Source: Bacteroidaceae bacterium
Lineage (GTDB): Bacteria > Bacteroidota > Bacteroidia > Bacteroidales > Bacteroidaceae
Length of the DNA: 64,000 nucleotides
Assembly (NCBI GenBank): GCA_017522915.1
Contig: JAFWXX010000029.1
Coordinates: forward strand, 1-64,000
Reading direction: 5' to 3'
Part shown: piece by piece, positions 34,833 to 49,900 of the stretch
Layout of the letters: the number at the start of each line of letters is the position of its first letter
Position numbering within the stretch: the stretch's first letter is position 1
The notes under the pieces: model-generated
Databases searched by the model: none
What the model was told of the DNA's origin: nothing
What the model saw: only the letters and a program-made list of their open reading frames with translations
Translations under genes and position numbers: made by a program

Positions 34833-34877
34833 AGTTCGTTTGTTTGATAATATAGAGTAAAATGCTTCTTAAATCTA

Positions 34878-35138: not shown

Positions 35139-35260
35139 AGTTTCATTAAGTTCAATTTCAGATAGTAAAGTTACTACAATTCTATCATTTATTCTTCATC
35201 TTTCACTGGCATCTCGTCAACAATCTTTGCCTATACGATTATCTGTTACCATAAATAGTC

Positions 35261-35614
35261 CTATTGTTTTCTTAATGCATCCGCAGCCCAACGAAGATAC
35301 ATTGCAGCTTTATCATCTGCCTGGGCTGCATATCGCAATTGTGTTTCATACTTATCCATCTCGTTCTCGGCATAACGAGAGTAGGTCTTCGCACGATGCA
35401 AGTCGCCACGCTTTGTATAATACGCTACCTCGCGTTGGTATCCTTCTGCCTTTTTGAGATAGTATGCAGCTTCGCGACGATAGCCATCAGCTTTCTTCTG
35501 ATAATATTCTGCTTCTCGCTGATAACTCTGAGCTTTCTTTATATAATAATCGCTTTGTGCGAGTACTATGTATACCGAAGTCATTAGTAGCATTAATAGT
35601 AGTATTCTTTTCAT
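35261..35614 (-). CDS. Exported helical protein with 14-residue repeats
   Basis: This 117-residue protein has a signal peptide (about 1-20, ending VLAQ). Four tandem 14-residue units follow at 23-36, 37-50, 51-64 and 65-78, with the consensus YYxKKAxxYQREAx. Each unit is two heptads, so the protein should form a long amphipathic helix or coiled coil with a tyrosine stripe and strong positive charge. The end is another helix (AAMYLRWAADALRKQ). It is probably periplasmic. Function is unknown. Confidence 0.65.
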   Translation of the reverse strand: MKRILLLMLLMTSVYIVLAQSDYYIKKAQSYQREAEYYQKKADGYRREAAYYLKKAEGYQREVAYYTKRGDLHRAKTYSRYAENEMDKYETQLRYAAQADDKAAMYLRWAADALRKQ

Positions 35615-35699
35615 AGACTTTCATTTTACATTATGAGTAAAAAAAAGCAGAATCTATCATTAAGATTCTACTTTTAATTATCAATCTGTCTATTTAATA

Positions 35700-36377
35700 C
35701 TATTCACTGCCAGATAATTTGGGATCAAAAATCAATTCACAGGAGAGACAGTATGTCCCACTTTCAATTTTCATTTGCGAACAAGGAATTTTTAAGTTCT
35801 TTGTAATTTGAATCAATCTTTTTTTGTCTTCTGGAGTAATATTACATCCCAAATAAATATGCGTAATAGCATTGGTTGTCTTTACACATCCTTTGACTAT
35901 ATCAGAAGAGTGTAGTAGAAGCCGAACTTCGTTTTCGTGTTCGTACTGCTTATTCTTAGTCCTTAACACTTCTGCGAGCAGCCCTTCAACATTATCTTCA
36001 ATTCGGATTGTTTCAGGTGCTGATTCTGTATACTTGACCCTCATCCAAACATTCTCTTGAATATTATTTACAATATCATATGGCTTATATCCATCTAAGA
36101 TCTGTGAGCTATATTCAATACAGAATCCTTTATGCCCATCTGCATAATAATCCCACATAAGACGATTATCTCTTACTGATAGTTCATCTCCCTCAAATAA
36201 GCAATATACATAACGTCTTTTTATTTTTTGTTGTAGGTCATCGAACAATCGCTCATCTTGAGTAAATTTGCCGTCGAATGCATCGCTCAACTGTGCCATA
36301 GAGGGAAAGAAAATCTCTTGTTTCTCTAGTGTGGAGATATTTAAATCATCACATTCCCGAAATTTGTAGTAACTCAT
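35700..36377 (-). CDS. DUF2971 family protein
   Basis: This 225-residue protein fits DUF2971: an N-terminal YYKF start, then LFEGDELSVRDNRLMWDYYADGHKGFCIEY (the WxxYAxxHKGxCIEF signature) and YEHENEVRLLL (the ExExR signature). DUF2971 proteins occur often in defence and mobile regions but have no proven activity. Its start overlaps the stop of the M48-type gene by 4 bases (ATGA), so it is the last gene of the long island operon. Confidence 0.8.
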   Translation of the reverse strand: MSYYKFRECDDLNISTLEKQEIFFPSMAQLSDAFDGKFTQDERLFDDLQQKIKRRYVYCLFEGDELSVRDNRLMWDYYADGHKGFCIEYSSQILDGYKPYDIVNNIQENVWMRVKYTESAPETIRIEDNVEGLLAEVLRTKNKQYEHENEVRLLLHSSDIVKGCVKTTNAITHIYLGCNITPEDKKRLIQITKNLKIPCSQMKIESGTYCLSCELIFDPKLSGSE

Positions 36378-37777
36378 AGTTTCTTAATATTATTAGCAAA
36401 TACATCATATATTCCATCTTTTGCATGGAGTTTATAATCCATCTCTATATGGTATGATTTATCTTGCTCTACTTCAAACTCAAAAGGAGTTGATATGATT
36501 CCTGATGGAGCATAGGCTGTAAGTTTATGCTTGCCAGGTGATGTTTTACGCCTCAATGTATATCCTTTGATGAAATTACCCGTACCAATCTCCTTATCAT
36601 CAAGAAGAATCTTGTATGAACCATCAAAATATGGAAGTTTATGTTTTTTCTTATCGAGATGAATTTCCAATTCAACAGATGTCTCTAAAAGTTTTTGTTG
36701 AGTATATATTGCAAATCCCCGTCTCAACCATTGGGCGAATTGAAGTGCGGGGCATAGTTGCTGTACTTCTCCTCTATATTCATTTAATGATAATGCGGAT
36801 TGCTGAACATTTTTAGAGGCAATCGTATTGCTTGGTTCCAACTTTCCTAATCGTTCCACTCGCTTTACTACCTCTTCTGAGAGTAAACGGCGTGCTGGTC
36901 GGGAGTAATTTCCGACAAAAGACAATGCTAAATATTGATTGTCAACCCGAATATTTTGCGATTGTAGTTGTTGTATACCCCATTGAACAACATCATAATT
37001 ATATCGAATACACGCAGCATGGAGTAATGCTCTTTGTAATGTAGATGCTCCTACATATTTAACAGCCACATCATCGGCATCGTATTCCATCTGTTTGGCA
37101 AGTCGAGAATATGCCTTGTTAATGCGGTTACAAATCCATATAGCAAAATAGGTAAACAGCAATAATTGCAACTTCATCTGTGTCTCCCAAGTTCCTTGTT
37201 TCTTTAATTCTTTAATTGAAACAAAGGATTGAGAGAACTGTCCGATTGTATAGACTGATATTGAGTTTCTCATCTCTTCTTGAACATAGTGCCCAAACTC
37301 ATGGTAGAGCATCGCTTGTATTTCGTCATCATCCATCTGTGTCAAGAACCCTAAACCGACCACAAGATTCCTATTCGGCTCAAAGAGTATATTTCGCAAT
37401 TGTGGCTGAATGAATACCGCAGCAGTTGCGTCGGGGCAAATATAAACCTTACGAATAGGCGATAAATTCAGAGAAGTCGTAACCTCGTTTATAATAGCGA
37501 ACAGTGTAGGATATTCCTGTTCTGTTATTGGTCGGAATGTCTTAGGCAATGAGGTCTTGAAACGAAATGATTTTACCATTTCCCATAGCAATAAACCTCC
37601 GGCCAAAGATATAATCGTAAGTTGAAGTGGTAATTCGTGATCATTATGATAACGGATTACATAGTATCCAAACCATAAAGAAGCCAAAGCGACTAGTACA
37701 AAACAACAACAGCCGATTATGTAAATCATAACCGACTTATTGATACTTTGCTTTAATTCTTCGACTTTACGATTCAT
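36374..37777 (-). CDS. M48-type membrane metalloprotease with C-terminal PEGA-like domain
   Basis: This 467-residue membrane protein has two N-terminal segments (about 17-40 and 52-68), a zinc-protease core with MLYHEFGHYVQ (HEFGH at 159-163) and the third ligand in QMEYDADDVA (231-235), and another hydrophobic stretch near 204-218. After residue about 345 comes a beta domain with IHLDKKKHKLPYFDGSYKI and TSPGKHKLTAYAPSG, which looks like a PEGA-type surface domain. M48 proteases cut damaged or signalling membrane proteins. In this operon it could act on the anti-sigma-like partner or on system components; that is inference. Its start is one base inside the stop of the anti-sigma-like gene. 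Confidence 0.85.
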   Translation of the reverse strand: MNRKVEELKQSINKSVMIYIIGCCCFVLVALASLWFGYYVIRYHNDHELPLQLTIISLAGGLLLWEMVKSFRFKTSLPKTFRPITEQEYPTLFAIINEVTTSLNLSPIRKVYICPDATAAVFIQPQLRNILFEPNRNLVVGLGFLTQMDDDEIQAMLYHEFGHYVQEEMRNSISVYTIGQFSQSFVSIKELKKQGTWETQMKLQLLLFTYFAIWICNRINKAYSRLAKQMEYDADDVAVKYVGASTLQRALLHAACIRYNYDVVQWGIQQLQSQNIRVDNQYLALSFVGNYSRPARRLLSEEVVKRVERLGKLEPSNTIASKNVQQSALSLNEYRGEVQQLCPALQFAQWLRRGFAIYTQQKLLETSVELEIHLDKKKHKLPYFDGSYKILLDDKEIGTGNFIKGYTLRRKTSPGKHKLTAYAPSGIISTPFEFEVEQDKSYHIEMDYKLHAKDGIYDVFANNIKKL

Positions 37778-38079
37778 TATTCATCATCTTCTTCTATTCC
37801 CTCGTCTGCTGTTTCATCAGCATTACTATCACCTAAGAATCCAGCCATAGCTAATGGCTCATACATTGGTCGTATTGAAGCTGCTGCAACATTTTCCCAG
37901 GAAGGGAGTGAAATAACATTCTCCGATGGGAACTCATCAATAGCTCTACGAGATACATTCAGTATCTCAAACGTATCAATATCCATAGCCGCATCAACCA
38001 TTGCTGATTCTTTATCTGAAAGCATACCTTCAAGATATGCAGCTAATTCCTCATCTGATATTTTATTGAACTGTTTCAT
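37777..38079 (-). CDS. Anti-sigma-like small protein
   Basis: This protein of about 100 residues starts at 38079 with MKQFNKISDEELAAYLEGML. That pattern (DEELAAYLEGxLSxxExAxVxxxxxxD) is the N-terminal helix layout of anti-sigma and zinc-finger-like regulators, but the zinc ligands are missing. There is no membrane segment. The end is very acidic (DETADEGIEEDDE). It overlaps the 64-residue gene upstream by 17 bases. Its place right behind the sigma factor supports a regulatory role. The longer frame to 38151 is less likely. Confidence 0.55.
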   Translation of the reverse strand: MKQFNKISDEELAAYLEGMLSDKESAMVDAAMDIDTFEILNVSRRAIDEFPSENVISLPSWENVAAASIRPMYEPLAMAGFLGDSNADETADEGIEEDDE

Positions 38080-38257
38080 AAGCCTCAACTTTTTCATTAA
38101 ACAATGTCGTTGCTCGCAAAGCAACCATAAAACACTCTTCAAAGACTGCATCTGACATGTTGAACAATACAGCCTTACGTTCCTTCAAGTTTGCTTTACC
38201 ATCAAGCACTCGACCAAGCAGTTCGAAGTTACTTATTTGAATTGTATTATTTTCCAT
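38063..38257 (-). CDS. Small protein, 64 residues, in the sigma cassette
   Basis: I do not recognise this protein. It starts MENNTIQISNFELLGRVLDG and has helical sequence with LFNMSDAVFEECFMVALRAT. It overlaps the sigma-factor gene by 11 bases and the anti-sigma-like gene by 17, so translation of the three is probably coupled. It could be a second regulator of the sigma factor. Confidence 0.55.
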   Translation of the reverse strand: MENNTIQISNFELLGRVLDGKANLKERKAVLFNMSDAVFEECFMVALRATTLFNEKVEAYETVQ

Positions 38258-38840
38258 ATCCTATTGCAACCATCTGTTTCTGTAAACCTTTTCTCACCCG
38301 ATTATAACGAGTGTAAACATATCCGGCAAATTGCGTATCAGTCTTAGCATCTGTGCTTAAATTCTCATCTTTTGCCATTAAAACTTTTGCCTCATCAAGA
38401 ATGTCGCCAGGCTTCTCGCCATCTATTAGGATGCGCTGGACTAAGAATCTATCAAAAGGCTGTAATCTCCTAATAATCTTATTGAGATCTTCCATGAAGA
38501 AAGCTTCCCCATTACTATCATTTTGCAGGTTCTTGACAAGTGCAATGTTTTCATCCAATGGCAATAGTTCCTTGTCTCGCTTATGCAGGAAATATCGAGA
38601 CGCTATAATTGTTACATATGAATTTAGCGAACAAGTATATTTGAATATCCTTAACTTGTGCCAATTATCATCCGAGAGGAACTCATAGAATTCCCCTATA
38701 AGTTCCTCTGGCGTATGTTTCTGCTGACAAAAGTACTGCCCAATGTATATCAACATCGGCTTGCACCGCACAAAGAAGAAGTCCTTAATTGTGCGGTGGT
38801 CACCAATGATTAGGTTACTTACGATTTGTTGGTCTGTCAT
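38247..38840 (-). CDS. Sigma-70 family (ECF-like) RNA polymerase sigma factor
   Basis: This 197-residue protein has a region-2-like stretch (TPEELIGEFYEFLSDDNWHKLRIFKYTCSLNSYVTIIASRYFLHKR, about 43-88) and a region-4-like helical end (LQPFDRFLVQRILIDGEKPGDIL; YTRYNRVRKGLQKQM). Region 4 diverges from the usual ECF helix-turn-helix and carries an insert around 155-175. It lies one base after the BACON/zinc-finger gene and inside the island operon, an unusual place for a sigma factor. It may switch the system on in response to a signal. Confidence 0.75.
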   Translation of the reverse strand: MTDQQIVSNLIIGDHRTIKDFFFVRCKPMLIYIGQYFCQQKHTPEELIGEFYEFLSDDNWHKLRIFKYTCSLNSYVTIIASRYFLHKRDKELLPLDENIALVKNLQNDSNGEAFFMEDLNKIIRRLQPFDRFLVQRILIDGEKPGDILDEAKVLMAKDENLSTDAKTDTQFAGYVYTRYNRVRKGLQKQMVAIGYGK

Positions 38841-38841
38841 T

Positions 38842-40668
38842 TTAATATGATTTCTTTATCTTACCAGTTCCATCACATTTTGAACATTCTACATGACCAT
38901 CACCGCCACAAACAGAACAAATGCGATCTTCGACCTGTGGAACAGGTGCTCCCATCCAACCTGTCCAAGATGTATACATACGCCTTAATACATGCTGTCC
39001 ATTTACCCAGCCGTATGCATATGAGCCAAATTCAGTTGTCCATGGATTGGTATATAAGTTGGGGCAATCCTTTTCGCCATCGCCACCACAACTACTACAT
39101 CTTGACCATCCATCTTGTTTTACTGTAATTGACTCTTGTTCGTCTCCGCAACTCACGTACACAGTTCCACTTCTTGGAGGATCATCATAATTACGATTAC
39201 AAGAAATTTTAATTCTATTTTTGTCGATAACAGATGTTGATATCCAAGATTCATACTCCGAAATAGATGGTTGTTTGTGGCTATCATTATAAATTGTTAC
39301 ATATTCAGAATCGCCCGAAGTACCAAATTTGATTGAACTTTTTGCTGCACCAAAATTAGTAGGATCTCCATCTTGAGATACGCTTATATCTCTAAGGTCT
39401 CCATTATTTGATTTTATGGTGATAGTTCCGGATTTGATTTTTCCAGTATTTGCTGGTACCTGTATTTCAAGACGTTTGTCCTCTAAATCTGCATATGCAG
39501 TAAGCCAACTTGGAGAACTATAAACAGACCACGAAGTGCCGTCTGTATACACATCAATTGGATAACACATGCCTTCACCACTGCCTTCTTCTGCCATAGT
39601 TAGACTTGTCTTTTCAACTCTAAAGTATGTAGCTAGGCCTGATGCCTGCGATACTTTAACTTTTTCGACATAATCATTGCATCTAATAACAACATCACCG
39701 GTTTTGCTGCCCTCATTATTAGTGCCCGTGGTTAGTACGATAGAAGCGACCATATTGTCCCCATCTTCTGTTATATTCTTTGATACTGAGAACCAAGATG
39801 CAGAAGTTGACACTTGTAAATCACAACCATCTGTTGTAGCAGTGATTTGATTTGACGAGCAATTTCCATACTTGTCAAAACTAATTTCAGAAGTATTAGT
39901 TTTCAAATAAGTGGGCAAACCAGAACTTTGACTTACCTTAATTGTCTTTGAAATACAATTAAATTTTTTACCAAAGAATGATGAATAGGTATTAACAGTA
40001 ATATATGCACTCCTTTCGTCATCTGTATTAGGTACAACATTTATTGATAGTGTACCCCCATCTCTATTAACATCTATCCAGTTCGATGACTCTTGTACAT
40101 CTATATTTATGTCGTTAGCGTCTGTTGAAATGGTTATAGTTTTGTTTCCACCTCTCTTACCCAAAGAGACATCGCCAGAAACATCAAGGTGTGACACAGG
40201 GAAGTAGTTAATTAAGCATACAACAATGGCTATTACAATAGCAATAATCAGTAGTATAATATTACGTATTTTCCTTGCTTTCTTTTTATTAGCAAGGCTA
40301 TCTTTAGCCTCTTGTATAAATCTACCGTTCGGATATTTTTTGATGTAACTTTCAAGACCAGAGATAGAATTCTGGTTTGTTTTATAAAAAGCAAGCTCCT
40401 TCGCTTGTGCTTTTAACTGCGCAACTCTTTGTGCGGCTTCACTTCTATGTAAGCCATCTATCCACAATTCAAGGTATTTCTCGAATTGCTCTATCGTAGA
40501 ACACGACTTAAAAGCAGACATGTCGGCATCGACCAATGACTTCAATCTGTCGACAATTTCCTGTGGACCGCTAATGTTTTCTAGAATTGTAGGCAACTGC
40601 AGGCTTTCGATATTCAATTCAGCACAGCATTCGCTAATACTTAGCTCATCAATTTTTTTGTATTCCAT
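38842..40668 (-). CDS. Membrane-anchored multi-BACON protein with DnaJ-like zinc finger
   Basis: This 608-residue protein has a cytosolic-looking N-terminus with the motif KIDELSISECC (5-15) also seen in the next two upstream genes. A second unit, LESYIKKYPNGRFIQEAKDSL, lies at about 105-125. One membrane segment lies at 136-156. Four BACON-like beta domains follow, each ending in a VSQ/VKQ strand (SKTIKVSQSSG, VEKVKVSQASG, RDISVSQDG, ESITVKQDG). The C-terminus has DnaJ-type cysteine motifs: C524/C527 in CSSCGGDG and C584/C587 plus C595/C598 in CSVCGGDG...CSKCDGTG. I know of no named family with this order. It may bind glycans or unfolded proteins across the membrane. Confidence 0.75.
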   Translation of the reverse strand: MEYKKIDELSISECCAELNIESLQLPTILENISGPQEIVDRLKSLVDADMSAFKSCSTIEQFEKYLELWIDGLHRSEAAQRVAQLKAQAKELAFYKTNQNSISGLESYIKKYPNGRFIQEAKDSLANKKKARKIRNIILLIIAIVIAIVVCLINYFPVSHLDVSGDVSLGKRGGNKTITISTDANDINIDVQESSNWIDVNRDGGTLSINVVPNTDDERSAYITVNTYSSFFGKKFNCISKTIKVSQSSGLPTYLKTNTSEISFDKYGNCSSNQITATTDGCDLQVSTSASWFSVSKNITEDGDNMVASIVLTTGTNNEGSKTGDVVIRCNDYVEKVKVSQASGLATYFRVEKTSLTMAEEGSGEGMCYPIDVYTDGTSWSVYSSPSWLTAYADLEDKRLEIQVPANTGKIKSGTITIKSNNGDLRDISVSQDGDPTNFGAAKSSIKFGTSGDSEYVTIYNDSHKQPSISEYESWISTSVIDKNRIKISCNRNYDDPPRSGTVYVSCGDEQESITVKQDGWSRCSSCGGDGEKDCPNLYTNPWTTEFGSYAYGWVNGQHVLRRMYTSWTGWMGAPVPQVEDRICSVCGGDGHVECSKCDGTGKIKKSY

Positions 40669-40687
40669 ATATATGTTATTTTAATTA

Positions 40688-41299
40688 TTATCGGTTAAGT
40701 TGCAACAAAGAACTACATATTATTCTAATAATTCTACGACGTTTTTTTAGAGAACAGATTAATAATGGTAATGTTATTGGCAGTAACAAACATAAGGGAT
40801 ATATCCATACAACAAGTACTATTAGAAGAATTGGAAGTTTTACAGTGATGATGTTATCCTGCAGTCCAATTCTCACATTAGGGAATATGGACAACAAACC
40901 ATTCTTTTTAAGATTGAGTTTCCCATATCCGTTGTTTATTAATATGTCAATTATGAAGTCCATACTTATATTGTCAGGCACATTAATTACACCTTTTTTC
41001 TGTAAAAATGGCATAACAAACTCTCCTTTATCTCGTGCACAAGATGATAATAATGGATTTGCGGTGGAATTTACACATAATAAGAAAGCCTCTGAATATC
41101 GTTTTTTAGCAAATAAACGATTGAACTGTTTAATAAACTCTTTTTGCACATCTAAACATCCCTCTTTGTCTGCCTCATTAATTTGAGATAATTCTAACAT
41201 CCGTTCATAAACATTTTTAGCAAACTCACCATTGGGATTTGTATCCAAATACTCTTGACATTCGGCCAATGTAAGGTCATTTATAGATTTTATCTTCAT
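40688..41299 (-). CDS. Small membrane protein with the shared N-terminal motif
   Basis: This 203-residue protein begins with SINDLTLAECQEYLDTNPNGEFAKNVYERM, which matches the N-termini of the neighbours at 38842 and 41344. A helical middle follows, then a hydrophobic region at about 150-185 (LPILLIVLVVWIYPLCLLLP plus a second stretch) and a basic tail (KKRRRIIR). It looks like a membrane component of the same system. No known family is recognised. Confidence 0.55.
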   Translation of the reverse strand: MKIKSINDLTLAECQEYLDTNPNGEFAKNVYERMLELSQINEADKEGCLDVQKEFIKQFNRLFAKKRYSEAFLLCVNSTANPLLSSCARDKGEFVMPFLQKKGVINVPDNISMDFIIDILINNGYGKLNLKKNGLLSIFPNVRIGLQDNIITVKLPILLIVLVVWIYPLCLLLPITLPLLICSLKKRRRIIRIICSSLLQLNR

Positions 41300-41343
41300 A
41301 TTACAAACTGCGTAATTTTCTAATTCTATGAATAATAAATTAT

Positions 41344-41781
41344 TTACCAGTTAAATTCCTTTTGCAACCAGCGCCCCAATGCTAATCCCGCAGGGTAAAT
41401 GATATATCTATACTTATTCCACCAATTATAAGGCAGGATTTCATTAAGAATAGTTATTATAATTGTTCCGACGACCAAAACAACGACTATAATACCAATC
41501 CACGCAAAAATTGTTTTTACAATATCATTTGAAGTGTTTGTTTGAGCAGCGGAAGACACCACATTCCCAGAATCCCTTTTACCCTCACTTTGGGGTTTGC
41601 GAATTTTCTTAGTTTCTGATTTATTTGTACATTCCTTTAGTTTGTCTTGTTGTGCTTTCGCAAGTTCTTTAAGATGTCTTTTTACCTCTATAAGATGTTC
41701 CCCATACGGATATTTGCTGATATACAATTCGCAATCAGCAACAGTAAATTCTTCTATTTGTTTGTGTTTAAATGGGTTCAT
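41344..41781 (-). CDS. Small membrane protein with the shared N-terminal motif
   Basis: This 145-residue protein starts QIEEFTVADCELYISKYPYGEHLIEVKRHLKEL, the same layout as its neighbours: a D/E-[LF]-[ST]-x-[SA]-[DE]-C helix, then a YPxGE turn, then a helix. A low-complexity linker and a membrane segment at about 87-112 (TIFAWIGIIVVVLVVGTIIITIL) follow. The end is short and aromatic. It starts exactly where the zinc-ribbon gene stops. Confidence 0.55.
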   Translation of the reverse strand: MNPFKHKQIEEFTVADCELYISKYPYGEHLIEVKRHLKELAKAQQDKLKECTNKSETKKIRKPQSEGKRDSGNVVSSAAQTNTSNDIVKTIFAWIGIIVVVLVVGTIIITILNEILPYNWWNKYRYIIYPAGLALGRWLQKEFNW

Positions 41782-43062
41782 TTACTTCTTTTGTGTTATT
41801 GTTAGGGTATCGTTATATTGACCATACTTCGCTGTAATTATGGCCTCTCTTCTTCCGTCAGACTCGTATGGTTGTACTTGAAGTATTAAGTTCGGAGTTT
41901 TACTTATGACCTTTACCCAATCAACATTTGGAATAAAATCTACATTGGTGTATGACTTATTATATTCAACAACCAACGATTGACGCCCCTCAACTCCTAC
42001 GACAATTTCAGAGTTAAGAAACAGACGATTTTCATAAGATGGTTTTGATTCGGATGAAATATTATTGATTACCTCATGCTGATTGGTTTGCTCCTTATCA
42101 TACCCCATCGTCCCGAAAGATGGACTAGCACAATAGGTATACAATAATCCAAGTAAAAGCAATACGATAACTCCTAATAACACTTTTATCAATAAGTTCT
42201 TCTTTTTGATACTTTTTTTGGCTTCTTCAATGTCATATTGTAAATATAGGATTTTTGAATTAGCGTCGTCTAACTCTCTTCTCAATTGTTTGTCCATATC
42301 TTCCTCCTCTTTCTTTATAGTGACAATTCTTGCTTGATCTTTTTCTTTACAAGTTGAACATATCCCGGCTGATGTAAATGCTGAAACATACTCTTTACAT
42401 TGAGGGCAAAGTTGTTTTACTGTATATGAGCCAGGTGCTACAGCTGAACTTAAACAGTTCATGAATGCCCCTTTCTTATTGGTTGCTTGCTGTATATTGT
42501 CATTGTCAATAAGTAAAGAAACATTGTCTAGTGTCAATGCTGCAGAAACAACCATATCCTTATCAAGATTGCCTAATGACAGGCATTGGAATAAGTCAGT
42601 ATTTAATGTTAGATTTACTTCGCGACCAGCTCGTATATATTTATATCTATCTGAAATACTGGCATCAGTAGCGCTATATCGTCGTTCGGATGAATTCCAA
42701 TATGGTTCAATCTCTTTTGAATATAGTTCTTTAAAATAATCTATATCCGACGGAAGTTTGACCTCATCTGGGATGAAGTTGGTTATAACAATTGAGAAAA
42801 ATCCATACACAGGTCGCCCAAGGGAGTCCTTAAAATGATTTTCAGCCAATAAAGAATTCCAACAGCAACAACCCCAAACAATGACATCGTCAAACTTGAT
42901 CAAAATCCATTTAGGAATAGTAAATTTAGGATTTGAGTCTCCTGTTATTGACAATATGTGTTTTCTGATAAAATCAACTTGATTTTTAGGCAAATCGGGC
43001 AGTACGAAATCGCCATAATCAATATGACTGTTTCTAGTATAACAATAATGCTGAATCTTCAT
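41782..43062 (-). CDS. Zinc-ribbon, coiled-coil, membrane and BACON protein (GTPase partner?)
   Basis: This 426-residue protein has four parts. Residues 1-200 are an alpha/beta domain (IPKWILIKFDDVIVWGCCCW; LGRPVYGFFSIVITN) that faintly recalls GTPase-associated protein N-terminal domains. C219/C222 and C235/C238 form a zinc ribbon (CPQC ... CSTC). A charged coiled coil at 250-288 leads into a membrane segment at 290-310. The outer end (355-426) is one BACON-like domain (VDWVKVISKTPNLILQVQP ... DTLTITQKK). It lies 5 bases after the small GTPase gene, so a partnership is likely. The N-terminal assignment is weak. Confidence 0.6.
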   Translation of the reverse strand: MKIQHYCYTRNSHIDYGDFVLPDLPKNQVDFIRKHILSITGDSNPKFTIPKWILIKFDDVIVWGCCCWNSLLAENHFKDSLGRPVYGFFSIVITNFIPDEVKLPSDIDYFKELYSKEIEPYWNSSERRYSATDASISDRYKYIRAGREVNLTLNTDLFQCLSLGNLDKDMVVSAALTLDNVSLLIDNDNIQQATNKKGAFMNCLSSAVAPGSYTVKQLCPQCKEYVSAFTSAGICSTCKEKDQARIVTIKKEEEDMDKQLRRELDDANSKILYLQYDIEEAKKSIKKKNLLIKVLLGVIVLLLLGLLYTYCASPSFGTMGYDKEQTNQHEVINNISSESKPSYENRLFLNSEIVVGVEGRQSLVVEYNKSYTNVDFIPNVDWVKVISKTPNLILQVQPYESDGRREAIITAKYGQYNDTLTITQKK

Positions 43063-43067
43063 ATTAC

Positions 43068-43973
43068 TTAAAATGTTATAACTGCTGGTTTACCTCCAAT
43101 ATACATTTTTAGGATATTGTTGTTAAATATCTTTCTAGCTATCTGTGCCTCATTTGCAGACAATTCAAGTCCGTTAAATAATGGGAACAATATTGGAATA
43201 TGGATATTTTGAGAAACATCTAGGTGCAAACATCCTGTCAATTTCTTTTTCATATCCTCATTAAACTCGCCTGCTCCTAAATTTGTACCCAGTGAGACGG
43301 CTGTAATTCCTACAGGATTTGGATTTGCTTTAGAAAACAATGTTGTCATATTGGTCTTTAACTTCTCCATTGCAAGATTTAGTTCTTCATCAGACAATAT
43401 ATCTTTTTTAGTTATTGTCAACAGAATTGGAACTTCTTGCTGCAGGTATTGACTAGCTTCGCTCATAATTAGTTTTAAATGATTCAACCTATTATTAGCT
43501 CTTATAACGGATTCAGCCTTAAGATCTCCTTTCCTATAAGCATCGGATTCATCTTCTTGGTTTTTAAGACTAAATGCTTTCATTAAAGTATATGCATCAA
43601 TAAAAACTACTATACAGCTTGACTCTTTAAAGGTCTCATATAGTTTTTCACGCTCATCTTGTGCTATATCCGAGTCATCATACAATGCTCCCCCTCGATA
43701 ATCATAGATTTCAAATTGAGTCCTTTTAATTCCGTTAATGTACAATTCATATGGAAATTCTCTTGTTTGGTCACTACCTCTAGGCCAAACAGCCTGGTCT
43801 CCATTGTCCATATCCTCAATTCCTTCATTCAAAAGAATATTTCTATTTACACTTGTGCATAAAATTGAAACACTTCCTTCTAAAGTTCGGATACCTTCTG
43901 TTAAAACATGAGATGCTGCATATAAATAACAGGTTTTACCTGATCCACTTAATCCTAGAAAACAAATTTTCAT
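43068..43973 (-). CDS. Small P-loop GTPase of conflict-system type
   Basis: This 301-residue protein has a Walker A GLSGSGKT at 7-14, a G3-like YDYRGG near 96-101 and a G4-like TKKD near 185-188, so it is a GTPase rather than an ATPase. It resembles the GTPases described in predicted prokaryotic conflict systems (the double-GTPase group) with one G domain. No membrane segment or signal is seen. It lies 22 bases after the Hsp70-like gene and 5 bases before the zinc-ribbon partner. Confidence 0.65.
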   Translation of the reverse strand: MKICFLGLSGSGKTCYLYAASHVLTEGIRTLEGSVSILCTSVNRNILLNEGIEDMDNGDQAVWPRGSDQTREFPYELYINGIKRTQFEIYDYRGGALYDDSDIAQDEREKLYETFKESSCIVVFIDAYTLMKAFSLKNQEDESDAYRKGDLKAESVIRANNRLNHLKLIMSEASQYLQQEVPILLTITKKDILSDEELNLAMEKLKTNMTTLFSKANPNPVGITAVSLGTNLGAGEFNEDMKKKLTGCLHLDVSQNIHIPILFPLFNGLELSANEAQIARKIFNNNILKMYIGGKPAVITF

Positions 43974-43995
43974 AATGTATACATTGTATAATTAA

Positions 43996-45009
43996 TTATC
44001 CGATAAAATTTCCTCCGCGAACAGACCTTTGTGTTCCAATATCTTTCAATTCTGGCATTAATATTGCACATTTGGTTCTTGCGTATTGTGCATCAAATCC
44101 ACTATTCTTACTGTTATAGGACACTAATGTGCAATGACTTTGCATATATTTCTCAAAAATAGTGTCTATGATGTTGCTATGTGCTCCACCTCCAACAAAG
44201 ACAACCTCTTCTATATCATTCCAAGATTTAGATGATGACTTTAATGCATTGGTACACTCTTCAAAACATTGGTATAGGAATGTTGTCATCTTTTGCTCAA
44301 AACTACTGCTTAGAGAGTTCCCTTTTGCAGATATATTATTGGGCAGTACGACCTCATCTCCATTATTTGCCATTATCTTTATTCTCTGCATCATTTGCCC
44401 TAGTAATGCTATTTCTATACTACTATGAGATGATGCATCATCGCAATCTATCAAAGAGAGCATATCAAAAGATGAAAATCCCAAAGTGCTATTAGCATTT
44501 TGATACAAACACTTTGTCTTTTCTTGTAGAGTAACTCGGAATGCACTTTCTCCAAAATCAGCAACAAGCACTAAGTTTGAATCTGGGCTAATTATGCGTT
44601 TTAATACCTCCCCAGCCTGTATAGTTTTCACTTCGCTAAAAACTATTTCAGCAATACTCTTTAACTCAGAATCTACAGTGTTGTTATATAGCAATACAAT
44701 TCCGATATTTGAATCGTTATAATGCCTAACAGATGCTTGTTTTATGGTTTCGAAGATTGCTTTTGCAATTAAAGATTTGTGTACAGAATGTAACCAATCA
44801 CGCACCCTCATATTAGGATTGCTCACACCAAGCTGTGAGGCATAATCTCCCATTATTATTTTTTTATCTTCAGTAACAACAACCACTGATGATAGTAATG
44901 TGGTTGTATAGTCACCCATAGGATAAGATAGTCGAACGGGGTTATTACCCTTGTCCAGCACAGAAGCTTTGATAGTAGATGCTCCCAAATCTACAGCTAC
45001 CCAATTCAT
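43996..45009 (-). CDS. Hsp70/actin-fold ATPase without substrate-binding domain
   Basis: This 337-residue protein has the actin/Hsp70 ATPase motifs: phosphate-1 VAVDLGASTIKASV (aspartate 7), phosphate-2 VADFGESAFRVTL (aspartate 151) and the adenosine motif VVFVGGGAHSNI (269-280). It ends soon after, so the Hsp70 beta-sandwich domain is absent. It is a divergent nucleotide-binding module, perhaps a sensor or assembly factor for the GTPases next to it. Its start overlaps the stop of the dynamin gene upstream by 4 bases. Confidence 0.75.
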   Translation of the reverse strand: MNWVAVDLGASTIKASVLDKGNNPVRLSYPMGDYTTTLLSSVVVVTEDKKIIMGDYASQLGVSNPNMRVRDWLHSVHKSLIAKAIFETIKQASVRHYNDSNIGIVLLYNNTVDSELKSIAEIVFSEVKTIQAGEVLKRIISPDSNLVLVADFGESAFRVTLQEKTKCLYQNANSTLGFSSFDMLSLIDCDDASSHSSIEIALLGQMMQRIKIMANNGDEVVLPNNISAKGNSLSSSFEQKMTTFLYQCFEECTNALKSSSKSWNDIEEVVFVGGGAHSNIIDTIFEKYMQSHCTLVSYNSKNSGFDAQYARTKCAILMPELKDIGTQRSVRGGNFIG

Positions 45010-46610
45010 AATGAATCCTTTCCGTATATATAATGGTTATAAATTCTTATTTCACGAAGAGCCTTTTCATATTTCTCTTTTTGTTCTTGCAATCTTATCG
45101 ATAGCAATTCATAAGACTTCGCAATAATGGCATATGGCTCGGACCTAGTTGGCGACAAATCATACCATGCATTATATTTTGTTTTCCAATAATTCTTGCG
45201 TTCTGTGGCAAGTACAATCATCTTAGATATGTCTGTATCTTCTGCAACATTTAATTTATTTACTGCCGAATGTCCAGATTCTCCACTAATAACAAGAAAC
45301 TCCTTCATGAAATCATCATCTACTGCAACTGAATTCTCGTATATTCTTAGCAGAAGACTCCATTCTTTTAACTCATGTAAGTCATTCTCAATAGAAGCAA
45401 TCTTTGAATATAGGGCATTCAAAACATTCATCCTTTCTTGAGAGTCTGCGTTCACTCGATCTTTATTGATAGCTTCAAGCAGTTGTATAACACCTCGCTG
45501 AGCTTTAATCAACTGTGCACGGTCTCCAAAATGAGATACTACAAGTTTTATAAATGTGTCAAATCCAGATTTGATTCTTAGAATTTGAGACAACTCAGGC
45601 AGTGTGATTTCGGCATTATTTTGTAATGCTCGCACGCACACATAAATACCATATAGTCCATATTTTAGCACTAACTTTTCTCGGTGATTCTTTGATAATG
45701 CTAAGAAGTCATATTCCTTGACAAACAGATCTGGGCTAAAAAATAAACGAGTAATACATTTATCATCGAGCCTTGCAAGTTGCTTAAAGGCGACTATATC
45801 TTCATTTGTAATTGAAGATGCAGAAAGTCCCATCAAAGCAGAAACAGGTAATATCCTAAATAAGACTTTATTTACTTCAGAACGGCTAGACAAGGTTCGT
45901 TTAATTGCAGAATCTGATGTTTCAATAGGATCGTTGTTTTTCATTATATCCCAATTCATGTCAACCTTGGACAATACACCCAAGGCATTCATAGGGTTTA
46001 TTGAAAATGACATATTCGTTTCTGAATTTTGAAACTCATTTATCAGCTTAAGGGTATCCTCAGACAAACTCTTAGAAAACAACAAAATTACAGCATCGGG
46101 ATTGACTGTTTTAAGGAACTCAATGGTATTCTCTGAATCAACTCTGCTTGTTGCATCCAATCCCGGTGTATCAATAATATTGATATATTTCAGCATTTCA
46201 TAGCTAGAGGTTACTTCTATATATTTCACCTCAGCTTTCAGCGATTGTTGTCCTTGATGAGAAGCCCAATCTGCCCAATCAGTCCTTGCTATCGTCTGCA
46301 TTTTGCCACTTTTGAAATGGACGATAATAGGAGCATTATCATCTCCATATTTCAACCAACTGACATTAAATGTTTCTGCCTCGTGTCCAGTTCTTACAAC
46401 TTCAGCTTTGCCCAATATAGCATTTACGAGCGTCGATTTTGAACTACTGATTCTTCCTACTATTGCCAATTGCATTGGCTCACGCATACGAGAATCTACA
46501 TCGCATATGGATTTTTGTGTATTACTCATCCATCGCGATGTAGACATAATCTGTTTGCACTCAGACAAACAATCTGCAATTTTACTATATACTAAACCGT
46601 CATTGTGCAT
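45006..46610 (-). CDS. Dynamin-like GTPase, second of a pair
   Basis: This 534-residue protein has G1 VGRISSSKST (51-60), G3 IIDTPGLD (145-152) and G4 LSKVD, followed by a long helical region, as in bacterial dynamin-like proteins. The P-loop glycine before the lysine is serine (SSSKST in place of SSGKST), which may weaken or alter nucleotide binding. No clear membrane hairpin is seen, unlike its partner. Pairs of dynamin-like proteins often work as heteromers on membranes. It overlaps the partner by 11 bases. Confidence 0.82.
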   Translation of the reverse strand: MHNDGLVYSKIADCLSECKQIMSTSRWMSNTQKSICDVDSRMREPMQLAIVGRISSSKSTLVNAILGKAEVVRTGHEAETFNVSWLKYGDDNAPIIVHFKSGKMQTIARTDWADWASHQGQQSLKAEVKYIEVTSSYEMLKYINIIDTPGLDATSRVDSENTIEFLKTVNPDAVILLFSKSLSEDTLKLINEFQNSETNMSFSINPMNALGVLSKVDMNWDIMKNNDPIETSDSAIKRTLSSRSEVNKVLFRILPVSALMGLSASSITNEDIVAFKQLARLDDKCITRLFFSPDLFVKEYDFLALSKNHREKLVLKYGLYGIYVCVRALQNNAEITLPELSQILRIKSGFDTFIKLVVSHFGDRAQLIKAQRGVIQLLEAINKDRVNADSQERMNVLNALYSKIASIENDLHELKEWSLLLRIYENSVAVDDDFMKEFLVISGESGHSAVNKLNVAEDTDISKMIVLATERKNYWKTKYNAWYDLSPTRSEPYAIIAKSYELLSIRLQEQKEKYEKALREIRIYNHYIYGKDSL

Positions 46611-48438
46611 TTGTGAATGGATTAGAATAAAGCAACTTCATCTGAGCAGTTATTGTCTCACAAAATTTAGATTTTTGTTCAAGTTCTGCAATTAGCTCCT
46701 TATTTTTATGTTCATTTGTTCTACTTTCCTGAATAGATACTTGTAGTACTTTCATCCTATCTTCGATATCCTTAATAATAGTTTGTAGAACAGATAATAG
46801 ATTTTGATGAAATTTAGCAAACCTATTATTGGTTTGATTTCTCAAATCTGTTAGTGCCAGATTGATTTTTGGCAATATTTGTTGCTGTATTTCTGCTTTC
46901 TTTCTCGTTTCATTTTCGTTGGAAACACTTCTCCAGACAAGTCCAACAGCGGCTGCCAATCCAACAGCCCAACCAATTGGACCACTAGCAAGAACGGATA
47001 CAACTGTAAGAGATAATCCGGCTTTACCTGCAGTAGAGAAAAGCAACTGGCTTGTAAAAGAGTTGAGTTCTTTAAAATCTCCTGTCATTAATGACATATT
47101 GCTACCAACAGTATCCGCGATATCTGATTGGATTTTCTCTGAAATACCTTTAAATGCGGATTCTATTCGTTCGTCTACATCATACGACAACCGTCGTAAA
47201 CGGTCGTTAATTTGAGCAACGAGCCATTTACCATCGTTATTAAGTCCCTTCTCACTAGTCAACAATTTATTAAACTCAATAGAAGTCAATTCTCCTCCAC
47301 GAGTAGATATTAAGTTTGCCACATCATTCCTAGCATCTTCAAATATAGAATTAATTTGCAATCGAGTTTGAGATGTTGGAGTTTCTAATTCCTTACGGTA
47401 AGATGCTAACGCAATCTGCTGACTCATCAATGATTCTAATTCTTTTTGTTTTTCATCTGAACTTTGGTTTAGAGCATTGATTTCGTTTGATATAACTATT
47501 GACGCATTGTTTAACTCTGCAATTATAAAGTCTCTAATTTTTTTATACTGAAATTTTCTGCTTGCTGTTACTTGTGAGATGACACTTGTTAGCACAGCGT
47601 CTTTATTTGACTTATGCAAAAATTCTTCATCCTCTAACGTCGTGTATAGCTCCCAATATTTCGCTGATGTAGGAATGATTTGAGGGCATATTGTATCAGC
47701 GAACTCAAGTTTTACCTTATCAAGGTGAATGTTCAATGTTTCGCTCAGCAATTCATCACATTTATTGACCAATAATATACATGGCTTATTAATGAGTTGA
47801 ATATGGTCAATGTAGAATCTCTTTTCCGAGTCTGTAAGAGGTTCGGCTGCATCTGTCACAAAAACAATTACATCAGCTTTGGGCAATGCCATATGAGTCA
47901 AAATTGCATGACGAGGATCAAGTCCACCAATACCTGGAGTGTCAATAATTGTAATTCCGTTTTTCAAGAATGGGCATGGATACGATAACTCGACAAGTAC
48001 AGTATTGTCAATATCGAGTACATCTCCCATTGTGTATTTTTGTATGTCACCCCATTCTATCTCCTCCGACTTTAATGATTCCATCAAGGTCGGCACTGGC
48101 GATTCACCTATTTTGAAACTATCTGGACTTATGGCGTTAGCGGTATCCAATATGTTACCATAATACCTAACTGCTTTTTTTACTGCTCCATATTTGATTG
48201 TGGTGATTACTGATGTAGCAATACCGGTATCAGTTGGGCATAATTCAGCTCCAATTATAGCATTAACAAGGCTAGACTTTCCTCTTTTGAATTCACCACA
48301 GAATAATACTGTAGCAGAATCTTCGGTAGTTGTAATAGCCTTATCGATCTCCGAAACTATGCTTTTCTTTCCATATGTTTCAAGGGTCGGCGCAATCTGT
48401 TTAAGAAAGCTTCTGAGTTTATCTGCATCAGTCTTCAT
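46600..48438 (-). CDS. Dynamin-like GTPase with membrane hairpin, first of a pair
   Basis: This 612-residue protein has an intact P-loop GEFKRGKSS (48-56), a switch threonine in TGIATSV, G3 IIDTPGIGG (164-172) and G4 LVNKCD (223-228). Helical stalk sequence follows. Near 475-505 is a hydrophobic pair (AGLSLTVVSVLASGPIGWAV and GLAAAVGLVW), the paddle or membrane hairpin of bacterial dynamins. It should bind and reshape membranes on GTP hydrolysis. It is the second gene of the operon, one base after the protease gene. Confidence 0.85.
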   Translation of the reverse strand: MKTDADKLRSFLKQIAPTLETYGKKSIVSEIDKAITTTEDSATVLFCGEFKRGKSSLVNAIIGAELCPTDTGIATSVITTIKYGAVKKAVRYYGNILDTANAISPDSFKIGESPVPTLMESLKSEEIEWGDIQKYTMGDVLDIDNTVLVELSYPCPFLKNGITIIDTPGIGGLDPRHAILTHMALPKADVIVFVTDAAEPLTDSEKRFYIDHIQLINKPCILLVNKCDELLSETLNIHLDKVKLEFADTICPQIIPTSAKYWELYTTLEDEEFLHKSNKDAVLTSVISQVTASRKFQYKKIRDFIIAELNNASIVISNEINALNQSSDEKQKELESLMSQQIALASYRKELETPTSQTRLQINSIFEDARNDVANLISTRGGELTSIEFNKLLTSEKGLNNDGKWLVAQINDRLRRLSYDVDERIESAFKGISEKIQSDIADTVGSNMSLMTGDFKELNSFTSQLLFSTAGKAGLSLTVVSVLASGPIGWAVGLAAAVGLVWRSVSNENETRKKAEIQQQILPKINLALTDLRNQTNNRFAKFHQNLLSVLQTIIKDIEDRMKVLQVSIQESRTNEHKNKELIAELEQKSKFCETITAQMKLLYSNPFTNAQ

Positions 48439-48439
48439 T

Positions 48440-49546
48440 TCACATATACATTAAAAAGTCAGTAGAATAATCCATACAATTGCAATCACAATAGCTCATA
48501 ATATCTAACTGCTGTTGACAAAGAGCCATTGAGTTGAAATCACCGATAGCATTAAATTGGCTCATACAATCATTGTAGAACATATTGTAATCTACTCCCA
48601 TACCAGCTAATGCGAATCTATCAAAATCCATCGGCATATTATATCCCATTGGTTGAATGTCACACCAATTAATGTCGTTGAAGCCATCAAAGCAAGTAGG
48701 ACGCATATAGTCATTAACCAATCCACAGTCTAAATAATCATTAAACATGTAGTTATCCGAGAAGATATCATTAAATCCAATGTTATTGTTGGCGAAATCA
48801 AGGTATGCATTGGTTAAAGATGTCATTGGAGACATGGTTGGCATAGGAGGAACGAAGCTACCTACAGGTGGAACAAAATCGCCCATAGGCATAAATGGAG
48901 GAAGTCCCATGCTGATGTCGTTGAATATTTGGAAGTCAGGATAACTTACTCCTGCTACATCAGGTATATGACCCAACTCTTGGTCGAAGTTTTGCATGCC
49001 TTCAGCAAATTCCGGTGCAGACATATCGGTTGATACCATATAGCAATTGGCATCAGACCAAGCGTCCATAAATTGATCCAGTGGATATGGTTTGCCATCA
49101 TCTCCACTTCCCGGATCCTTAACAATGACCTGAATGTTATTAGGGTCAGAAGTGTCTATCCCTGCAACAATTAAAGCATGATTGCCTCCTGGCTCTCCAA
49201 AGAAATCGTTATACCAGTTTTTTAATTTGTCACTAATAGAATCATTATGCCACATCTCATTAGCATCAAGTCCAACAATCACTTTATGACCTTGAGCTAA
49301 TTCATTGACAAGATTGAAAACATTTGCTCCCTCTTGTCTTGTTACGGGAATATTCGCCAACTCAAGAAGATTTCCAACATCCTGAGGGGCTGTTCCTCCA
49401 TTATACCAACCGTTTACAGCTGCGGTTTGTACTAAATCTACTTCTGAAACCTCAATTCCAAAATCATTCAATATGAGTTGCTGGGACTTAATTGCGCATG
49501 AATCTGGAAAGATCTGCTGTACTTCTGGGTTATAAAAATCTGCCAT
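48440..49546 (-). CDS. C39-like papain-fold cysteine protease with Met/Asn/Asp-rich tail
   Basis: The first 175 residues fit a C39-like peptidase: catalytic cysteine 17 in IFPDSCAIKSQQ, histidine 123 in GGNHALIVAGID, and aspartate 144 in VKDPGSG. There is no signal peptide and no ABC transporter, so it does not look like a bacteriocin exporter. Residues 190-368 are low in charge and rich in Met, Asn, Asp, Phe and Pro (PPFMPMGDFVPP), probably disordered. As the first gene of the operon it may be the effector released or activated by the GTPases; that is inference. Confidence 0.75.
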   Translation of the reverse strand: MADFYNPEVQQIFPDSCAIKSQQLILNDFGIEVSEVDLVQTAAVNGWYNGGTAPQDVGNLLELANIPVTRQEGANVFNLVNELAQGHKVIVGLDANEMWHNDSISDKLKNWYNDFFGEPGGNHALIVAGIDTSDPNNIQVIVKDPGSGDDGKPYPLDQFMDAWSDANCYMVSTDMSAPEFAEGMQNFDQELGHIPDVAGVSYPDFQIFNDISMGLPPFMPMGDFVPPVGSFVPPMPTMSPMTSLTNAYLDFANNNIGFNDIFSDNYMFNDYLDCGLVNDYMRPTCFDGFNDINWCDIQPMGYNMPMDFDRFALAGMGVDYNMFYNDCMSQFNAIGDFNSMALCQQQLDIMSYCDCNCMDYSTDFLMYM

Positions 49547-49635
49547 AGTTTTAAAAAGTTTTGTTTCTTTTAAGAGTGCTAGGCTAATGATATTCTATCA
49601 CAAGTAGTTATTTTTCTTAAATTATTATTACACTG

Positions 49636-49648
49636 TTCCACGAAAGAA
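49636..49648 (+). repeat. TTCCACGAAAGAA motif, copy A
   Basis: One of three exact 13-base copies within 325 bases, next to a truncated integrase. It is in direct orientation with copy B and inverted relative to copy C. Confidence 0.7.
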
Positions 49649-49722
49649 CTCCAAATTTTATGTAAAGTTAATAATAATATTCCAATCAGACGCCGTAATA
49701 ACAAATTATTTTTTCAATGTCG

Positions 49723-49735
49723 TTCCACGAAAGAA
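49723..49735 (+). repeat. TTCCACGAAAGAA motif, copy B
   Basis: Exact second copy, 87 bases from copy A and in the same orientation. Flanking bases differ, so only the 13-base core is shared. Confidence 0.7.
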
Positions 49736-49900
49736 TAATTACACATTCAACTGGCAGACAAATACTTATTGGTCAATAGAGATGGTAATATCCTGATTTA
49801 TACGGTGGTTACAATCGCCTTTTCATACTATTGCATTCTTTAAGATTGTTTTACATCAAACACATATATGATAACACAATTATAATATTTGCATTAAATA

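Follow-up and report, generated by a model that had tools for sequence, protein, structure and literature searches.

The mycobacterial iniBAC operon, the best-studied relative of the locus described here, responds to cell-wall drugs through IniR and is also induced by trehalose, and in M. smegmatis a dnaK-like gene adjoins iniR (PMC5760070). IniA cuts membranes in vitro and has been proposed to act in membrane repair (PMC6715688), the Campylobacter dynamin pair CjDLP1/2 tethers membranes (PMC6104087), and B. subtilis DynA has been reported as membrane surveillance that also meets phage (PMC8844932). Other described systems include the cyanobacterial 'chaperone group' of dynamins, with tandem dynamins and a DnaK-domain gene downstream of a dynamin gene (PMC5827413, section 7), Eleos, termed a dynamins-like defence system (PMC11811056), and DO-GTPase systems with HSP70 (Kaur et al., 2020; PMC7159879). 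Here we describe an operon of 14 genes in a 64,000-nucleotide stretch of a Bacteroidaceae genome (positions 1 to 64,000 of contig JAFWXX010000029.1, assembly GCA_017522915.1; hereafter the window). It looks like an undescribed membrane system, whose role is most likely protective. With slightly less than even confidence, we read it as an acquired conflict operon, probably directed against phage, whose dynamin pair would be induced by a sigma factor that a C39-like peptidase releases. Loci and genomes used for comparison carry numbers beginning with L and G, respectively.

All 14 open reading frames (ORFs) were confirmed. They lie on the minus strand throughout, from 49546 to 35700, and form one tight operon (listed in order of transcription; aa, amino acids):

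48440..49546, minus strand: C39-like papain-fold cysteine peptidase, 368 aa, with an Asn/Met-rich variable C-terminal half (invariant C17/H123/D144)
46600..48438, minus strand: DynA, dynamin-like GTPase, IniA-type, 612 aa (Dynamin_N 3.1e-25)
45006..46610, minus strand: DynB, dynamin-like GTPase, IniC-type, 534 aa (Dynamin_N 6e-11)
43996..45009, minus strand: Hsp70-like protein, nucleotide-binding domain only, 337 aa (HSP70 2.7e-5; alignment)
43068..43973, minus strand: DO-GTPase-like GTPase, 301 aa (DO-GTPase1 0.0013 and DO-GTPase2 0.0031, both below cut-off)
41782..43062, minus strand: GTPase-neighbour protein (GNP), 426 aa, with a conserved N-domain, a zinc ribbon, a transmembrane stretch at 285-317 and a C-terminal BACON domain
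41344..41781, minus strand: small membrane protein, 145 aa, with a Y-x(4)-P-x-G motif and a hydrophobic stretch at 84-119 (relatives in L038, L044 and L047)
40688..41299, minus strand: membrane protein, 203 aa, with a Y-x(4)-P-x-G motif and a hydrophobic stretch at 144-185
38842..40668, minus strand: membrane-anchored protein, 608 aa, with four BACON domains (5.3e-23, four stretches) and a cysteine-rich DnaJ-type C-terminus
38247..38840, minus strand: sigma-70 family (ECF-like, for extracytoplasmic function) sigma factor, 197 aa (NCBIfam sigma70-ECF, E 0.04)
38063..38257, minus strand: small protein, 64 aa, probably the anti-sigma-like module in a second copy (module model, E 6.7e-4 among 601 targets)
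37777..38151, minus strand: stand-alone anti-sigma-like module, 124 aa (E 2.4e-9 with the module model, 601 targets; zf-HC2 0.026)
36374..37777, minus strand: membrane-anchored M48 metallopeptidase, 467 aa (Peptidase_M48 5.3e-11; hydrophobic stretch at 11-42)
35700..36377, minus strand: DUF2971 protein, 225 aa (PF11185 7.2e-8; PADLOC candidate family PDC-S31 5.9e-31)

The initial annotation of this DNA had counted 13 or 14 tightly packed minus-strand genes, and successive genes are indeed spaced by 1, -11, -4, 22, 5, 0, 44, 19, 1, -11, -89, -1 and -4 bp; a later Met start for the 124-aa gene would make the -89-bp overlap smaller. The domain calls made at that time were borne out, those of the C39 peptidase and the sigma factor through relatives and those of the dynamins, HSP70, BACON, M48 and DUF2971 by Pfam. 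The motif then said to be shared by the operon's three membrane proteins proved to be Y-x(4)-P-x-G, present in all three.

A core of C39, DynA, DynB and the Hsp70-like protein recurs in Bacteroidota, Cyanobacteriota, Planctomycetota, Verrucomicrobiota and Actinomycetota, often extended by the DO-GTPase and its partner GNP. When genome contigs were scanned with a C39 alignment of three rows, 12 loci were recovered; these include L046, which is the G071 locus L038 again, and L055, which is nearly identical to the Anabaena plasmid locus L040. Component queries for these loci came from the window, L038 and L040 only. DynA was present in all 12 loci, although this first scan asked for close C39 relatives and 12 of 12 therefore overstates the C39-dynamin link. 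DynB was found in 10 (L052 and L053 end at or shortly past DynA) and Hsp70 in nine (L049, L052 and L053, which lack it, end at or shortly past the dynamins). The DO-GTPase was detected in seven, with a possible eighth (L053) by a Pfam DO-GTPase2 match, and GNP in six, the proteins of L051 and L053 being placed by alignment only. According to their record titles, the core loci come from Prevotella, Bacteroides nordii, another Bacteroides, a Sphingobacteriia metagenome-assembled genome (MAG), Thermoguttaceae, Gemmataceae, Kiritimatiellae, Verrucomicrobiales and Dolichospermum. Two Rhodococcus plasmids recovered with DynB and C39 queries, pLRE138 and pRZP2, carry genes annotated as sigma-70, C39, Hsp70 and dynamin family/GTPase. 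The G592 locus (L064), used in no model, reads C39-DynA-Hsp70-YbjN-DynB-Hsp70. C39, both dynamins and Hsp70 also occur together in L125, L127, L128, L129 and L133, and L129 additionally contains GNP and four DO-GTPase ORFs. In no other locus was the full 14-gene set seen; L038 comes closest, with a caspase replacing the M48 peptidase. The operons of L044 (a MAG labelled Clostridia) and L047 (labelled archaeon) are ~70-79% identical to the window in DNA over stretches of 1-3 kb, and their contigs are probably misbinned.

Because the core recurs in several phyla and in further loci, the gene set is not the product of chance. Homologs of the genes grouped in the initial annotation thus occur together across phyla, and the locus did not prove to be a known housekeeping or secretion locus. 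That the operon is not one system but accessory genes brought together by chance on an island is highly improbable. This explanation draws on the many C39 loci without dynamin (counted below) and on L126, which has C39 and no other component, but it is contradicted by recurrence: the core is kept in distant phyla, gene gaps are near zero, and fusion evidence joins the two ends of the operon.

The fusion evidence comes from a wider C39 profile, which gave 46 matches in 37 of 301 genomes, and 15 of 30 genera, of the window's bacterial family. For the 41 new matches 39 regions were fetched (the other five of the 46 had been found previously), and C39 was present among the ORFs of 37 of these regions (not L138 or L155), giving 39 C39 ORFs among 601 ORFs. 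For 26 of the 39 C39 genes, a same-strand sigma gene lies no more than 1200 bp upstream (31 sigma ORFs among the 601); the sigma model was built from sigma genes of such cassettes, and other sigma factors may escape it. A second model was built from 21 C39 N-termini of other genomes (D-E-L-x-A-A-Y-L-D/E-G and following), with the window excluded. This module is present in the C39 protein in 24 of 26 cases with a sigma gene versus four of 13 without a detected one. Since 21 of the 28 module-bearing C39 proteins helped build the model, the 18 C39 proteins outside model building were also counted, giving four of six with sigma versus three of 12 without. A first sequence pattern for the module (20 of 26 with sigma, one of 13 without) missed visible variants, and the model count was used instead.

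The window's 124-aa gene was the best match to the module model outside C39 proteins and is, by its sequence, a stand-alone copy of the module that elsewhere is fused to C39 behind sigma. The two ends of the operon are tied together because the module fused to C39 in other loci stands alone behind sigma here. The pattern H-x3-C-x2-C, as in zinc anti-sigma factors, is kept in one relative (L066); the zinc ligands are absent from the others that were seen. For the window protein alone the sigma call is weak (E 0.04), and it rests on relatives with weak Pfam sigma regions: two match Sigma70_r2/r4 weakly, the L050 relative with Sigma70_r4_2 at 7e-4 and r2 at 0.02. Sigma queries from the window and L038 match the sigma genes before C39 in L090-L092 at 3e-15 to 6e-18. 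The operon thus behaves as one system with a sigma cassette, as had been suggested earlier.

The genes that follow the sigma-C39 cassette vary, and in most cassettes they are other than dynamins. Within nine same-strand genes downstream of C39, the 37 family loci include dynamins in nine (weak in L132), M48 in six, SIR2-TIR with nSTAND1 in three and TIR-FGE relatives in three. M48 genes recur in C39 loci, and the sigma-module-M48 order of the window resembles the sigma-C39-M48 order of L135, L136, L137, L144 and L151. Within the window's genus, the C39 gene is present in five of 44 genomes, many of them incomplete; the loci besides the window are L089, L090, L091 and L092, the last of which stops inside C39. 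Behind the cassette, L089 has a divergent dynamin pair in a different arrangement, and L090 has an RyR-domain protein, TIR-FGE-sulfatase and CHAT. The L091 cassette precedes a protein with an RyR-protein-like N-terminus, nearly identical in sequence to that of the L090 RyR-domain protein, followed by SIR2-TIR (PADLOC PDC-S66, 1.7e-18) and nSTAND1. The L038 operon has a caspase (1.8e-20) beside sigma, a Nonomuraea dynamin pair is flanked by two caspase genes, and the Anabaena locus has a CHAT protein nearby.

Such cargo could also point to altruistic death, in which proteases (M48 here; caspase, CHAT and TIR elsewhere) and dynamins would destroy an infected cell's membrane or physiology. The caspase, CHAT and TIR/SIR2 genes of sister loci fit this idea, but Pfam gives no pore-forming or nuclease domain among the 14 genes, and we consider it unlikely.

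Three further observations concern the neighbors of C39 loci. L064 encodes, at 7937-9955, a second Hsp70 fused to an FGE-sulfatase domain (6.4e-50), a domain type that has been linked to hypervariable conflict proteins (PMC7159879). In Bacteroides nordii (L048, 16264-20182), JAB-Big_2 and ThiF E1-like proteins lie behind C39-DynA-DynB-Hsp70, as in ubiquitin-like modification modules. RCK-domain-related (potassium-channel-like) proteins, possibly additional cargo, stand beside sigma-C39 in L092 (3582-5693), L135, L140, L154, L156, L158 and L159.

The operon lies on a horizontally acquired island that is patchy in the genus:

30957..50719: inserted island, approximate edges (about 31.0-50.7 kb), absent at the relA-DUF4301 junction of relatives, low GC
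49901..50575, minus strand: truncated tyrosine integrase at the island edge (Phage_int_SAM_5 7.2e-21, Arm-DNA-bind_5 3.2e-11)

Measured in 2-kb steps, GC content is 34-41% across 32-50 kb; elsewhere, 20 of 23 steps fall at 44-52% and the other three at 37-41%. In five of the six same-genus genomes fetched, relA is directly beside DUF4301, with 187-391 bp between matches. The island is therefore absent from this junction in these five genomes; the sixth (L080) was uninformative as an empty site since its left neighbor differs. No Pfam match to a catalytic domain was found in the integrase gene.

The dynamin pair links the operon to iniBAC. DynA matches the Protein Data Bank (PDB) structures 2j68 (1.6e-17) and 6j72, M. 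smegmatis IniA (5e-16), and DynB matches 5owv (1.7e-15, using a three-row profile). DynA and DynB separate in a tree of 35 dynamins. In this tree an IniA-like protein groups with actinobacterial DynA (98/97), and an IniC-like protein groups with actinobacterial DynB (100/99) within the DynB clade (98/94); long branches and skewed composition were flagged by the program. The Ini names of these N. farcinica genes were assigned in this analysis, the record being unannotated. At the N. farcinica locus (L041) a long glycine/alanine-rich IniB-like gene precedes the dynamin pair, and an Hsp70-like gene lies upstream on the opposite strand; the IniB-like protein matched none of nine component models (E<=10). 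Since DynA and DynB group with the Nocardia IniA/IniC-like pair, mycobacterial iniBAC probably belongs to the same lineage as the operon's dynamin pair.

This kinship brings in envelope-stress repair of the iniBAC kind, in which damage to cell wall or membrane would release sigma, DynA and DynB would patch damaged membrane or pinch it off, and M48 and C39 would clear damaged proteins, with phage defence at most a by-product. Such a role is the main rival to the conflict reading and somewhat less likely. It would fit the grouping with the IniA/IniC-like pair, the dnaK-like gene beside M. smegmatis iniR (PMC5760070), IniA fission and its proposed part in repair (PMC6715688), and the M48/HtpX-like protease. 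It would also fit BACON domains that may face outward, for which charge near the membrane stretches is weakly in favor, and the absence of the sigma cassette from most dynamin loci of the family survey. However, the operon is a patchy acquired island, and the same sigma/C39 cassette precedes TIR, SIR2, nSTAND1 and CHAT, unlike a housekeeping stress response. Sister cassettes with this immune-type cargo, and the patchiness of the island, favor the conflict reading over envelope repair. The two may be one, membrane surveillance that also meets phage, as has been reported for B. subtilis DynA (PMC8844932). The membrane-surveillance, phage-defence or envelope-stress role suggested in the initial annotation thus remains conjectural.

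Under the conflict reading, at rest the sigma factor would be held by the small anti-sigma-like proteins encoded at 38063-38257 and 37777-38151. Invasion or membrane damage would be sensed by the membrane-anchored BACON proteins, and the signal relayed by the DO-GTPase and the Hsp70-like ATPase. C39 would then cut the anti-sigma module, setting sigma free and raising expression of the operon. DynA and DynB would co-assemble on the inner membrane to tether, seal or sever it, while the Hsp70-like protein would control dynamin assembly or disassembly, and M48 and DUF2971 would act as further, exchangeable effectors. Every arrow of this circuit is inferred, as is its anti-phage purpose; the membrane action is suggested by the IniA and Campylobacter papers. 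In favor of this reading are the retention of the core across phyla, the association of sigma and the module with C39, the immune-type genes behind sister cassettes, the caspase genes of L038 and Nonomuraea, and the patchy acquired island. A CRISPR array with Cas1 and Cas4 within ~2.5 kb of L064, the PADLOC matches of DynA (LeoBC), DUF2971 (PDC-S31) and SIR2-TIR (PDC-S66), and the published membrane fission by IniA and tethering by CjDLP1/2 point the same way.

Several results weigh against this reading. No dynamin was seen in 28 of the 37 family C39 loci, although for at least five of these 28 the contig or stretch is no longer than 6 kb. A sigma gene lies upstream in only three of the nine dynamin loci (L129, L133 and L157), and the module is fused to that C39 in L129 only, so dynamin loci do not constantly include the cassette. 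In the window itself C39 opens the operon, sigma comes tenth and the module is unfused. Cleavage of the module by C39 is only a proposal. The oxyanion Gln is lost in the C39 proteins of L090 and L091. C39 as phage cargo was rejected, since its presence could be confirmed neither in viral contigs (41 pattern matches, no relatives) nor in phage records. The proximity of CRISPR at L064 is a single case. PADLOC, applied to 10 of the 14 proteins, reported no complete named system, and the LeoA/LeoBC matches may reflect the dynamin fold only. Finally, cell-wall drugs and trehalose are what iniBAC answers (PMC5760070). Because only three of nine dynamin loci have sigma, our confidence was lowered from evenly balanced to just below that point. 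Given these three and the 28 loci without dynamin, the sigma cassette is one unit and the dynamin module another; C39 is common to both, and certain loci combine the two: the window, L038 (sigma on the 3' side), L049, L050, L066, L089, L129, L133, L157 and the Rhodococcus plasmids.

Within the C39 protein, C17, H123 and D144 are invariant in all 14 aligned proteins and in 15 of 15 of a wider set. Q11 is kept in 14 of 14 of the first alignment, where the catalytic Gln-Cys-His-Asp set is complete. Peptidase_C39_2 is matched by 11 of the 14 aligned family members (E<=0.1); the window protein itself has no Pfam match. The outcome of the phylum search with C39 was five of 395 hits. Two of the five, L093 and L094, where the C39 matches lie inside 1086- and 2756-aa ORFs without sigma or dynamin matches, were set aside as not belonging to the system. 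Beside or within C39 in Rhodococcus and Anabaena are acidic D-x-D-G-D-G repeats that by eye look calcium-binding-like (L056 16453-17094, L057 11738-12613 and the N-terminus of the L040 C39).

C39 peptidases often process the leader peptides of exported peptides. This habit would suit a vesicle or secretion system, in which the dynamin pair would bud vesicles and C39 and M48 would process exported cargo. LeoA has likewise been linked to toxin release, potentially via vesicles (PMC4159319). No ATP-binding cassette (ABC) exporter or outer-membrane channel is present among the 14 genes, however, and a simple hydropathy scan, the one test that also bears on signal peptides, showed no hydrophobic segment in the C39 protein. 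A vesicle or secretion role is very unlikely.

Both dynamins carry P-loops, that of the window's DynB being GRISSSKS, with Ser where Gly is usual. S-K-S in place of G-K-S was seen in eight of 22 DynB proteins examined (window, L038, L044, L045, L047, L048, L049 and L127), and DynA of these loci retains G-K-S. A DynB search of 393 genomes of the order gave its own genome as the sole match at 1e-15. An unverified 'Bacteriophage sp.' record (L043, MT836781.1), possibly an integrative element instead of a phage, contains two dynamin genes in tandem next to a gene that by eye looks integrase-like.

The 'Hsp70-fold ATPase' of the initial annotation kept its fold and was refined to a nucleotide-binding domain only; there is no substrate-binding domain. 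Compared with the canonical Hsp70 phosphate-2 motif, that motif is degenerate in the Hsp70-like proteins of the window, L044 and L047. As a family tracer this protein matched 67 of 201 genomes at 1e-3, with only G071 strong besides its own genome (6.4e-22) and the other matches mostly in DnaK-sized frames. The tracer was dropped since it misses true relatives, such as the Hsp70 of L127, which is the weak G163 match in a 475-aa frame. No match to the Hsp70-like protein was found in plasmid records.

The 'small GTPase' likewise remained a GTPase, and its family was refined: DO-GTPase2 is matched by 12 of 12 family members (E<=0.1, best 2.9e-15), and on this sequence evidence the window protein belongs with the DO-GTPases. 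Relatives of GNP, whose BACON match (8.3e-5) is just below cut-off, adjoin the DO-GTPase gene in L038, L044, L045, L047, L050 and L040/L055. GNP was considered as a GAP1-N2 protein and rejected, as none of 10 GNP proteins gave a GAP1 match (E<=0.1). GAP1-N2 (PF20013) had no match in the window's own genome or in 198 genomes of the phylum; GAP1-N1 was covered by the Pfam scan only. With hhalign, GNP versus GAP1 reached a probability of 0.2% (controls 0.04-0.34%), at least three of the 11 GAP1 rows being wrong ORFs, and GNP versus L164 alone reached 0.8%. The 608-aa protein has a hydrophobic stretch at 130-163, and its DnaJ_CXXCXGXG match is only E 0.66.

One further feature follows the last stop codon of the operon:

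35643..35675, minus strand: terminator-like hairpin, 13 pairs and a T run

Twelve terminator-like sites were found versus 6.5 expected, so a single hairpin carries little weight. A sigma-70 promoter scan was uninformative (63 sites versus 62.9 expected), and no conserved promoter was identified 5' of C39, where the upstream regions of the window and L044 were not convincingly alignable. Three near-identical 14-base sites, TTCTTTCGTGGAAC, are located between C39 and the integrase remnant, at 49635-49648, 49722-49735 (minus) and 49947-49960 (plus, one mismatch). Allowing up to two mismatches, TTCTTTCGTGGAAC has five matches in the window versus 0.44 expected; the sites are possibly integrase arm sites or an operator. 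The other island genes, at 31201-35614, encode DUF1232, a short NT5C-like protein, two proteins that by eye are membrane proteins, and further small proteins.

A broader proposal, which we offer tentatively and with less confidence than the conflict reading itself, is a new immune control unit. Sigma and a C39 that brings its own anti-sigma domain (in some cases on a separate protein, as here) would precede interchangeable effectors and raise the alarm by proteolysis of that domain, and iniBAC would be a derived branch of the dynamin version. If so, the effectors would include CHAT, caspase, M48, TIR/SIR2-nSTAND or a dynamin pair accompanied by Hsp70 and the DO-GTPase, and the alarm would act at the level of transcription, not through a second messenger. 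A protease-released sigma factor would then be a switch common to several immune-type cargoes. Bacterial dynamin pairs, whose in vivo roles are mostly obscure, would gain partners (a protease, an Hsp70-like switch, a DO-GTPase and a sigma factor), and iniBAC would fall within a family that spans phyla and whose ancestral function could be tested.

Our literature search, which covered subscription papers poorly, returned no published description of this gene set, and each described system shares part of it. The sigma gene followed by a short HC2-like module, with H-x3-C-x2-C in L066, resembles pairs of ECF sigma factors and zinc anti-sigma (ZAS) proteins, but the module here mostly lacks zinc ligands and is often fused to C39. 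LeoABC, Eleos and 'Dynamins' are small dynamin-only systems of two or three genes. They share paired dynamin-like GTPases with the window, which differs in having 14 genes and a regulatory circuit. In PADLOC, DynA matches LeoBC at 1e-24 and LeoA at 1.5e-19, and DynB matches LeoA and LeoBC at only 1.7e-4 and 7e-4. We did not file the operon as Eleos. The cyanobacterial chaperone group has a similar dynamin and DnaK-like neighborhood with tandem dynamins, but section 7 of PMC5827413 mentions no C39, DO-GTPase, GNP or sigma. DO-GTPase/GAP1 systems, as described in PMC7159879, share with the window the DO-GTPase, an Hsp70 without a peptide-binding domain, beta-sandwich membrane proteins and variable effectors, and have a DnaJ domain where the window has a DnaJ-like cysteine-rich tail. 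The terms 'dynamin', 'C39', 'BACON' and 'sigma factor' do not occur in the main text of that paper. Unlike those systems, the window has no GAP1-N2 and has BACON instead of FNIII; Pfam scans of the 14 genes for an FNIII or GASH component gave BACON only. We did not file the operon as a DO-GTPase-GAP1 system because GAP1-N2, a defining part, was not found. Similarity to iniBAC extends to the dynamin pair, which groups with the N. farcinica IniA/IniC-like pair, and to the dnaK-like gene of some iniBAC regions (PMC5760070; N. farcinica L041). Unlike iniBAC, the operon has C39, the DO-GTPase, GNP, BACON proteins, the sigma/anti-sigma-like module and M48. No IniB-like or IniR (STAND-type activator) gene is among its 14 genes, and it was not filed as iniBAC because it has no IniB. 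The earlier view that no named system matches thus holds for the set as a whole, but the operon is not without relatives: its dynamin pair groups with an IniA/IniC-like pair, its GTPase belongs to the DO-GTPase conflict families, and its pairing of dynamins with a DnaK-like protein is shared with cyanobacteria.

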